Of a stretch of 64,000 bases of DNA, positions 26,128 to 62,612 are shown one piece after another. The notes beneath the pieces were generated by a model that was not told where the DNA came from, did no database searches, and saw nothing but the letters and a program-made list of their open reading frames with translations. Origin of the DNA: Trichopria drosophilae (lineage: Eukaryota; Arthropoda; Insecta; Hymenoptera; Diapriidae). The stretch spans positions 1 to 64,000 of the forward strand of contig JAQOWT010000026.1 of the NCBI GenBank assembly GCA_030407085.1. The letters run 5' to 3'. The translations under genes and the position numbers were made by a program. The number at the start of each line of letters is the position of its first letter. Within the stretch, counting starts at the first letter, position 1.

Positions 26128-27083
26128 CCCGAGTAAAAAAAAAAATGATCTAATTTGATCAAATTTGGCCGAAACCGAATGAATCAAAAGGGGATCAGAA
26201 TAAGATCACTTTTTTGAAACATTTCAGGATCTGAGATTTTCTGTCAATTAATGAAAATTAGGCCAAAACTGGATGTAATTGCGATTTTTTTTATATAAAA
26301 ATTTAATCTGATCAGAACTGTTTCATACTCATATATTTGCGACAATTCGAAGTGAATTGGAATTGTATCATATTTTGGTCAATTTAGGATCTCTTTGCGA
26401 TCAAAATGCAACCAAAATCGAATTGTTCTGTTTCAGAAAAGAGAATGTCATTGGCGACGATTCCGATCAAATTTGATCAAAATGTAATACATTCAGGAGC
26501 AATATCCGCCGAAGTATGATATATTTCAGCTGATAGATTTTTATCTCTTTCAAATCTGAGCATCGATTATGTTAATTTGAAATAGATCAAAATTTAATCA
26601 CAATCATATCCGGTTCCAATCAGTTGTGATCCATTTCGAAGACACAGGAAACCTCTGAGAATGCGGCTTGGAAATTTCTTTCGACCCTTATAAGATACGA
26701 TTTAGATCCAATTCTATTTGAATTTATTTCAATTTAAACGTAATCCAAAACAAAATTGGAACGAAAGAAATATTATTCAAATAAACAGAAATAAACTGTG
26801 CTTTTTAATTCGAATAGTCAGAAATAATATGTACGTCACGCATGCACGATAATCGGCATCTTATTCCCCTGTAGAGAGGGGCAGAAGTAATCCATTATAC
26901 GACTGCGACACGGTAGCATGTAATAATGAATACGTTATTACCCGCTGTCAAGGGCAATAATAACTCATTATTGCCCAGTGGTGTCATCATCATCCTTTAA
27001 TGTACAATACTCTATTCTTCAATTTATTTCAAAACAAAGTCACATTCTACATTAATAAGTATTATTTTAATATTTTTGTTAAA
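26128..27083. promoter_or_regulatory. Left subterminal region of element 1, GATC-rich
   Basis: No gene here: 956 bp separate the terminus from the BEN stop codon. I count 13 GATC tetramers in the first 600 bp, many in TTTGATCAAA or GATCAAAA contexts, far above what an AT-rich sequence should give by chance. CACTA-type transposons carry clustered subterminal motifs that bind an element-encoded DNA-binding protein. I infer the same role here, possibly with the BEN protein. An AATAAA signal for the BEN transcript (minus strand) lies at 27023-27028. Coordinates 26860-27000 hold unremarkable sequence. Confidence 0.6.
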
Positions 27084-30000
27084 TCAATTTTTATTCATTT
27101 TTTTCGGAACAGTTGTTGTGGTATCGCCAGCAGGTCGCTTTTTTGATGTGGTCTGCTCATTTTGACGTTCCATTGGCTCCCTGGCCTTTTTTGAGCTGGC
27201 CCTTAAATAGTTGCAAAAAGATGCAATTTTTTTATGTGTTTCGGAGTCGGTCAATCGTAAAGCCCGAGGTGTATTCTCGTTGACGAAACCTAAATCACAA
27301 TATTACACCATTATTATTCTTAGAATTTAGAAAGAATTTAGAGATAATGGAATTAAAACAGTCGGAATTTAAAAACGCGCGGGATTTAAATCAGTGAACA
27401 CTTCCAAATACCAACAAGACCGTTTTTTGTCAATTTCTTTCAATTTTAGCGTTTATTTTGTTTCGCTTAATGGAAAGCAACTTCTTGCCACTGACAAAGT
27501 TGTTGGTATTGAAAAAACCTTTAGTTTGAGCCTTCACTCGTTTCAGTTCGATGAAAATTGATCTCAGGGAAGACTCCTGAAACCGGCGACCTGCAACAGA
27601 CGAGACACGCGCCACTTCAGGAGGCACCCCTGGGCTCAATTTCAGTCGAATCGAATCACAGCAATCGAATCGAAAGGAGCGAAGGCTTAAACTGAAGTTT
27701 TTTTCAATTTCTACAATTTTATTAGGCGCGGCAAGTTTCTGTATATTAACCACTTGAGCGGCATGGCGTCAAAATTACCATTGCGCGCAACGCCAATTTT
27801 GACGCCCCCCCGCTCACGTGGTTAAGAGCCCTCGGGCGTGTCAGCGGTATAAAAAAAAATGGAGAAGCTTTTCGCCATAGTCGTTTATTTTTTACGTATC
27901 TACTTTTTTCACAATTTCTTTACTAAAATAGATTTCATAATACAAGGACTACAAGGTGAAGTATTATTAGTCAGCATTTGTTGCTAACAAGTAGGAAAAA
28001 TAAAACCTGAAAGTTTGACGTCAAATTTTGAAGTTTGAATTTTCGTTGTCAAGTCGACGCAAAACATAAAGCTTATGTTTGATTTTTCCTATTTATAAGT
28101 AAAAAATTATCACCATATTACTTCTCTCGATAGACTTTGCGAGGACGAAACTATTTCTACAAAGGAATTCTGAGATATTGCCTAGAAAACGAATATTTAC
28201 GGCACAAACATTCCTCCGCTTTGTTGACAGCCTTGGGGCGGCCAGCGAGTCTTAAGCGAAACGAAACAAACTCCAAAAATTGGAAAAAATGAAAAAACCG
28301 CCATTACTACGTACATTCTGCGCGCTTCAGCACTTTCAGGAGGCTCAGCCGTTGCATAATTGTTTTTCAAATTCCGTTTGTAAATGCCGCTTGATATTTT
28401 TTAAGTGTTCATATATATTAGTTTGAATTTTCAATACAGAGCCAGAATAATATAGAAAAATGAAGTGAGTAACTGTTAATTTACTGCCTAAATATCTTTA
28501 ACCGAATTTCTTTACATTTAATTTTATTCACATTGTAAAAAAAGTGAGAAGAAAGAAGAGGAGAACAGCATCGCGGTTCTTATTTGAGAGTATGAAAAAT
28601 CAATTATTGATTTGTAAAATTTCAAGTTAAAATTGATGCAGTTACTTACTTTTGATTCCCTCCAACATCCTAGAAGGAATACCATCCGATACATGTGCTC
28701 CTTTCCCCGATATGGATAGTTTGGAGAGCTTATCTTCTCCCAACAATTCGATTAAAAGAGCTCGCATCATTTTCGCAGGATGTCTTTTAAATCGACGCTT
28801 TATAGACTCGACTTCGAATGATGGCAGCCAAATATTCGAATTTCGACCAATTTCCATCTGCATGATCAACAAATCTTATGTCATTTTCTCATTCGTTTAA
28901 GTCACTGAATTCAGTTTCAATTTTGCACTCATTTCAATCACTAAACTCGATTCATTACGGCTAGTTTCTAACTTTCAGTACATACATTACATTCGTGTTA
29001 TTCGTTTCATAGGCTTCATTCGTTCTATTACTATACCTCATTCCATTGATTCATTTCGTTACTTTTATTCATTCCAATCACTTCAGCCATTTCATTAGGT
29101 TTATTCTTTGCATTCAGGCCATATTTTTCAAGCATCCCATTAATGTCATCCACATTAGTAAATGCTCTCATTCAATTGATTCATTTCATTCTTTCCATTC
29201 AATCCATCGGCTTCGTTTTTTATTTTTTGTACCCGTTTTCTGTGGATAAAGTGTAAAATTCGTGAGTAAAGTAAACTTTACGCACAGAAAATAGTTACAT
29301 AAAACAAAGTTCGGCACATGTGGTAGTGTGTAAAGTACTTTACTCTCACACACATACACACACACATACACACACACACACACACACACACACACACACA
29401 CACACACACACACACACACACACACACACACACACACACACACACACACACACACACTTGTGTTGAAAACTATTATTATTCCATCGATTCATTCCATTCG
29501 TCCCATTATCCATTCCATTCCTTACTTCCATACATTTCATTATCAATGAACATGACGATTCAGTAGTCTACTATATTTTTCTCACACCTGCTCCCGACTA
29601 GTCCTTGAATATGTTCCAGTTTCTGCTTCGTCTATAGAGCGCTGCTTCTTGGCATAGTTAACAAATTTTTCAATGAATGATGCGTTTTCCGGGTGGAGTA
29701 GTGATTCCAGAAATTCGATGTTCCTTTCTGTCACTAAATGAATAAGTTTTGTAAGTTACGGACTCTTTACTATGTAACTGTTCCAGGATTTTAAATTACG
29801 ACGTGTTCGATTGTTTTAAAAATTGACCGATTTCTTTTCCACGGACAAAGAAATCTACAAGGGGTCTCTAGATAACATAGAATGTGCAGAAAAAATATTT
29901 AAAAATCCATTGATTTATTGTGGTTTATAATCCTAAGTTTTTTACTGTACAATGCAAAAATTACATTTTTTTAAATTGTTTTTCTAACCCTGCAATAATT

Positions 30001-61857: not shown

Positions 61858-62009
61858 TAATTATGTGATGTGATGTTCTATGTTCATATGATATATATAT
61901 GTAAACTGTATGATATATTATGTAGTAAAGCCTGAAATTTGAAAAAGGTCTTGTTCAATTATTTTAAAAAAATGGCACTTCATCACTTTTTTTATTAAAT
62001 AATTTTGAA

Positions 62010-62612
62010 AATCTTATTTTGTTTAATTGTAATCGAGAGGAGATTTTTTCCGAAAAAACTGGTCATTTTTTGATTCTCGTCATGTTTATAAGTGATTCGA
62101 TCTATTGTTTGCTATGAAAATCGTTTTCATTCAATTTTGGTTTAAAAGTGATCGTGATAAGAGTTCTTATAGATCCGAAGTCTACTAGACTTGAGTCATT
62201 TGTGAATACAGGGTAATCCAAATCTTGATCAGAAACGAATAAAAAAATAATCATTTTTTTATCTCAATCAGGTCAACATTTGATTCTCACTCATTTAAAG
62301 CAAGCATAAACAGATCTTTTTTCGACCATAAAATGATCAAAAAAAGATCAGTTTTTAATGTTCGCGTATCCACAATAACATTCTCCACGTATTTAAATCT
62401 GGTCAAAAATTGATCATTTTTTGATCTTTACAGACAAAAATTGGATCATTTTCAATCTATCGATATTATAATTCCAATTTTTTGTTGTTGTAAACTGGTC
62501 TAACTTTGGTCCTGAAATGTCTCAAAACTAGGATCGAATTTAGATCACTTAAGGATCTGACCGATTTTGATCAAAATCTGATCAAATTTTGATCAACTTT
62601 TTTTCTCTCGGG
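62010..62612. repeat. Right inverted terminal region and terminus of element 2
   Basis: Inverted partner of 48594-49150 plus about 200 bp of more terminal sequence. It ends TTTTTTTCTCTCGGG and is dense in GATC. From 61858 to 62010 the sequence is AT-rich and has no gene. Confidence 0.75.

Follow-up and report, generated by a model that had tools for sequence, protein, structure and literature searches.

A transposase and a BEN-like gene in an apparently recent transposon, likely of the CMCT clade, in Trichopria drosophilae

Two related elements at one locus

We analyzed a window of 64,000 nucleotides from the hymenopteran Trichopria drosophilae (contig JAQOWT010000026.1, positions 1 to 64,000), in which two related transposons lie close together. 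Element A (26128..44988) is a complete transposon of 18,861 bp with CCCGAG..CTCGGG ends and a target duplication, TG, and element B (48606..62612) is an older relative. The insertion site of A is a 161-bp AT-rich satellite array that spans positions 1-26000 and 45000-48596 and also meets B's left edge. Joining the flanks of A with a 2-bp overlap (TG) recreates satellite sequence at 40 of 40 positions, and does so three times in the window, with overlaps of 0, 1, 3, 4 or 5 giving 11-14 mismatches.

The genes of A are all open and follow one another as BEN-like (minus strand), CxxC (plus), transposase (minus) and BEN-like (plus). The transposase (33018..38840, minus strand) consists of 864 amino acids (aa) encoded by three exons (38840-38729, 38410-38282 and 35371-33018), the first junction being in phase 1. 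Within its second intron, a 1.8-kb stretch with inverted ends (GGTACC...; 36155-38011) resembles another inserted element. The BEN-like gene is present as a left-arm copy (27084..31948, minus strand; exons 31948-31807, 31672-31432, 30886-30732, 29733-29588, 28857-28650 and 27289-27084) and as a complete six-exon right-arm copy (39137..44032, plus strand), the two encoding an identical 365-aa protein, with five codon differences that are without exception synonymous. Splice phases of this gene are 1-2-1-0-1, and the first intron of the left-arm copy has a GC donor. A small gene (32273..32981, plus strand; exons 32273-32327 and 32710-32981; intron in phase 1) encodes a 108-aa CxxC protein with a putative coiled coil, assigned by eye.

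Element B has inverted repeats at 48654-49103 and 62044-62427; its left terminus is lost and its right terminus lies at 62612. Sequence comparison identified a BEN-like gene whose exon 4 is out of frame (49372..52461, minus strand) and a transposase gene with stops and frame breaks (58309..61857, plus strand), and the CxxC gene is open (57747..58124, plus strand; exons 57747-57807 and 57904-58124; 93 aa). The order is thus BEN-like (minus), CxxC (plus) and transposase (plus), with the transposase oriented opposite to that of A. Protein identity between A and B is 53-62% for the transposase (three segments), 44-51% for the BEN-like protein (two parts) and 38% for the CxxC protein. DNA matches between them with E <= 1e-4 fall only over exons of the genes or in the terminal 102 bp, one of them spanning the short first BEN intron and some slightly overrunning an exon. 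Together, these identities and the confinement of the matches argue that the likeness of A and B exceeds chance.

An earlier note on this DNA had described two elements carrying the same trio of genes with conserved splice phases, and both descriptions hold: all three genes are present in each element, and B agrees with A wherever it can be read (in the BEN-like gene, exon 1 ends in phase 1, exon 2 in phase 2 and exon 3 in phase 1, and exons 5 and 6 are joined in phase 1; the CxxC intron is in phase 1 and so, by visual inspection, is the end of transposase exon 1). The CCCGAG termini it named are found at both ends of A (26128 and 44988) and at the right end of B, the left having been lost. 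Beyond what it described, A has a complete BEN-like copy in each arm.

Copies of A abound elsewhere in the host genome (936 Mb). With A's transposase as query and the best 57 of 1,250 candidates scored, at least 14 A-family transposase loci are apparent, of which 12 show 100% identity over 784 aa and two are interrupted. Both ends are present at eight of nine further loci, with lengths of 18,782-18,888 bp; the ninth (C1:22.57M) is rearranged and only partly covered. A 6,568-bp core has a single variable site across the window copy and seven others, and in an eighth other copy a single base of this core departs from that of the window, changing one residue of the CxxC protein. This near identity of full-length copies argues that the A family moved very recently. 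Among nine copies, the window's included, six have target duplications of 2 bp (TG, GG, TG, AA, GC and TA) and one has 3 bp (AGG).

The inverted arms of A (left, 26128..31951; right, 39134..44988) share 99.1% identity over 5.8 kb. Scored per 250 bp, identity stays at 98-100% in the part outside roughly the BEN start codon and drops immediately inside it to 77% and 54%, yet the two BEN-like copies retain related leaders (69% over 213 bp), pointing to a repeat whose inner part is older and whose outer part has been homogenised. At the 13 sites that distinguish the arms, nine A-family copies are unanimous for the inner nine, while the outer four show one state in the window copy and C4, the exchanged state in five copies, a mixture in one and a uniform reading in one. 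Such exchange of outer states among copies that agree at inner sites suggests that the arms probably recombine with each other, which would convert the ends and invert the core with respect to them. We rejected arm identity as a measure of the age of A, because the arms have exchanged sequence.

The transposase and its partner genes in other families

The transposase of A matches Tnp2 (E 2.6e-10) and belongs to a family that is already in databases and widespread. Its exon-3 frame contains the catalytic and CMCT residues D222, D308, C327/C330, H533/H537 and E557, which are kept in 15 of 15 aligned relatives, save the second Cys in one. A structural model predicts that it folds like RAG1, with the core fold that is a feature of RAG1/Transib-like transposases, though sequence identity to RAG1, BbRAGL and Transib is ~10% and its partner is a BEN-like protein in place of RAG2. 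CMCT members are described with a DDE transposase bearing C(2)C and H(3)H and with target duplications of 2-5 bp (PMC12730594), a range into which seven of the nine A-family copies fall. Most of them, in the same description, have 5'-CA..TG-3' ends, unlike the CCCGAG..CTCGGG ends of A. Strict EnSpm/CACTA membership requires CAC..GTG ends and a 3-bp duplication, and we rejected it for an element with CCCGAG..CTCGGG ends and mostly 2 bp. What survives of the CACTA-type family proposed in the earlier note is a CACTA-related transposase, and A likely belongs to the wider CMCT (RAG1-like) clade.

The pairing of this transposase with a BEN-like gene extends beyond A and B. All 14 A-family transposase loci have BEN exon 5 beside them, and 13 have it on both sides, among the matches listed (best 112 of 415 candidates scored in the genome search with this exon). 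Two further families, fam3 (C3:108.03M) and fam4 (C1:218.41M), have transposases 61% and 59-60% identical, respectively, and in both a BEN-like gene faces the transposase gene head to head, at a distance of 264 bp in fam3 and 294 bp in fam4. They have the same CCCGAGTAAAAA start, and the first and fifth BEN introns and the first transposase intron keep the phase they have in A. Phylogenetic trees unite A, B and fam3 (0.974) and leave fam4 outside this group (all four, 1.0); the placement of fam3 beside B has support of 0.33 in FastTree versus 96 by ultrafast bootstrap (UFBoot). At a locus of another Tnp2 family, which has an 864-aa frame (43% identity), a BEN-like exon lies on the opposite strand, 5.4 kb from the first transposase exon (E 1e-8). 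This exon scores 31.8 bits to a profile of the four families and may lie inside that element.

Tnp2 is abundant in the host genome, with at least 145 matches among the best 150 of 207 candidates scored. Other Tnp2 families have open copies of equal score, six with the 864-aa frame and five with an 808-aa frame, and by their sequences several Tnp2 families of this host look recently active.

The CxxC gene is distributed differently. Among A, B, fam3, fam4 and the 864-aa-family locus, it was detected solely in A and B; a motif scan of the last three gave no candidate, and a CxxC hidden Markov model (HMM) run on their six-frame open reading frames of >=30 aa gave nothing convincing among the matches listed. 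We therefore rejected a fixed trio of genes. As the pair recurs in fam3 and fam4 with conserved phases while the CxxC gene does not, the transposase and the BEN-like gene appear to form the core of the family, and the CxxC gene would be either an addition in A and B or a part lost in other families. No BEN or CxxC domain was found fused to the transposase among 121 transposases (best E 0.16).

The three-gene family of the earlier note thus contracts to the pair. Its proposal that all three proteins serve the element finds support in conservation for the BEN-like protein, and weakly for the CxxC protein. The ratio of nonsynonymous to synonymous differences (pN/pS) is 0.33 for the transposase and 0.43 (exons 1-2) and 0.39 (exons 5-6) for the BEN-like gene. 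The note had also held that clearly mobile copies without the two extra genes would speak against it, and fam3, with inverted ends of 0.7 kb that are 96% identical and a transposase exon without stops, comes close for the CxxC gene and has kept its BEN-like gene. Of the domains it proposed to seek with HMMs, Tnp2 was recovered and BEN, in Pfam, was not.

GATC arrays and the role of the BEN-like protein

Subterminal repeat arrays, a feature of CACTA-like two-protein systems, are present in the form of GATC sites. The left end of A (26128..26727, mirrored at 44389-44988) has 13, compared with a mean of 4.9 and a maximum of 11 in 300 shuffles, and the right end of B (62013..62612) has 16 (mean 3.8, maximum 8 in 300). 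Inside A, GATC counts are below the shuffle means. Five of 12 spacings at the A end are divisible by 11 (P 0.0022), as are 11 of 15 at the right end of B, a figure reached by none of 10,000 random placements; the tandemly doubled left end of B was left out of these counts. In fam3, the left end has four of eight such spacings (P 0.002) and an internal cluster 11 of 14. GATC sites about one DNA turn apart, to judge from this spacing, suit rows of protein on one face of the helix.

These arrays and the recurrent pair lead to the reading we prefer, to which we give an even chance: that A is a recent 18.9-kb transposon of the CMCT clade whose BEN-like protein binds the terminal GATC arrays and directs the transposase there. 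The protein would be a counterpart of plant TnpA, as both end binder and regulator, and its gene in both arms may give each end its own copy. In maize, two proteins are needed, TnpA, which binds subterminal repeats, and the transposase TnpD (PMC2613891). The plant CACTA elements En/Spm, Tam1 and Tgmt* resemble A in being large, with a Tnp2 transposase, subterminal repeats and a second element-encoded protein, which in plants binds these repeats (PMC2613891). They differ in having CACTA ends and a 3-bp duplication, and TnpA, as described there, is not BEN-like, whereas the second gene of A is a separate, BEN-like one, doubled in long arms.

In A and B, the role of an optional adaptor may fall to the small CxxC protein, which would form dimers by way of its one CxxC motif and its coiled coil and link BEN units to each other; from the sequence we would guess that the two CxxC motifs of such a dimer hold a single zinc. 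The model for this role is Elba3, a non-BEN adaptor for Elba1 and Elba2 (PMC6911014) that bridges the two in Drosophila. ELBA (Elba1, Elba2 and Elba3) and Insv would parallel A's set in combining BEN proteins with a small non-BEN adaptor, but they are host chromatin factors, and the CxxC protein is likened to Elba3 by analogy. Bracovirus BEN genes also lie on mobile DNA of wasps, but these are described as encoding up to 1,200 aa, with three exons, on viral circles (PMC4574769).

A wider proposal, possible though doubtful, is that these elements represent an animal CACTA-like, RAG1-folded branch in which a BEN protein replaces TnpA, making a two-part recombinase with the transposase, that one lineage gained a CxxC-clasped coiled-coil adaptor, that the BEN gene moved into 6-kb core-flipping arms, and that host BEN boundary factors, ELBA among them, could have arisen from BEN proteins carried by such transposons.

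Among alternatives, the one that survives best is that the BEN-like protein is the element's own regulator of transcription or chromatin (a self-repressor, insulator or anti-silencer), uninvolved in cleavage or pairing of the ends. We think this unlikely, though it deserves serious weight: Drosophila BEN proteins repress and insulate (PMC6911014), and the BEN-like and transposase genes share a head-to-head promoter region of 264-297 bp in fam3, fam4 and on A's right side. The GATC arrays of A, however, are at the ends, distant from such promoters, although fam3 and fam4 also have internal arrays.

The identity of the protein is a second point of doubt. The name BEN-like rests on a profile comparison by hhalign, which scores above shuffled controls and aligns the protein with the 'R.LL....l..e.L...S(I/V)(S/T)GK' core of Insv and Bsg25A. 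Several results weigh against our reading here: no BEN match appeared in any protein scanned with Pfam, the protein has no relative in the protein database, the AlphaFold model of exon 5 is poor (predicted local distance difference test, pLDDT, 60) and Foldseek with that model returned no match. Searches of PDB and NCBIfam sequences gave no match either, and viral contigs searched with all three proteins yielded nothing, the BEN-like domain having no relative there. BEN domains favor short sites, among them TCCAATTGGA for Insv (PMC6911014) and CATG for NACC1 (PMC11472053), and neither of these is GATC. The failure of Pfam, PDB sequences and Foldseek would fit some other helical DNA-binding or adaptor protein; set against the hhalign score and the aligned core, this seems improbable to us.

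On the same side of the balance, only five of the 29 spacings at the fam4 end are multiples of 11 (not significant, P 0.10), steps of 10 and 11 bp being frequent there, and none of nine is in the internal cluster of fam4, which steps by ~10 bp. At least four BEN-like places have no nearby transposase match, among the matches listed, and a clear target duplication is absent in two of the nine A-family copies. The CxxC gene is missing from fam3, fam4 and the 864-aa-family locus by tblastn (E <= 0.01), and its pN/pS of 0.68 (0.47-1.09) remains compatible with neutrality.

A host origin of the BEN-like gene, captured, carried along as a passenger and duplicated fortuitously during growth of the arms, has a precedent in accessory genes that move between transposons, such as TET/JBP in fungi (PMC12730594), but is very improbable given the position, phases and selection common to A, B, fam3 and fam4 and the solely synonymous differences between its two copies.

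In the open-license literature searched, we found no description of a transposon carrying a BEN gene; what is new here is a partner of BEN-like type, encoded in both long arms, together with end arrays in phased spacing and arms that would flip. A young, intact, multicopy animal element of the RAG1-related clade with a candidate end-binding partner and end sites makes the two-protein CACTA mechanism testable in an animal. If our reading is true, the BEN-like protein is a new kind of partner for such RAG1-like elements. It would also provide a setting in which BEN-like proteins serve a transposon, bearing on the origin of host BEN chromatin factors, and, should the element prove active, a tool for gene transfer could be built from its ends and transposase.

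Sequences within and beside element B

Element B has accumulated several other features. A GC-rich non-LTR (long terminal repeat) retrotransposon (RVT_1, with a weak zf-RVT; ~53130-57660) splits it between the BEN-like and CxxC genes, and a 149-bp tandem duplication (97%) lies at its left edge (48606-48917). A BEN intron contains a near-perfect palindrome (50095-50333; arms 90-94%) that resembles a foldback miniature inverted-repeat transposable element (MITE), and an intron of the transposase gene has five GATC sites (58860-59040; spacings 11, 11, 64 and 22). One base from the right end of B, and head to head with it, a second CCCGAG end (62614-62819) carries three GATC sites 11 bp apart and, judged by these letters, is a fragment of a further relative.
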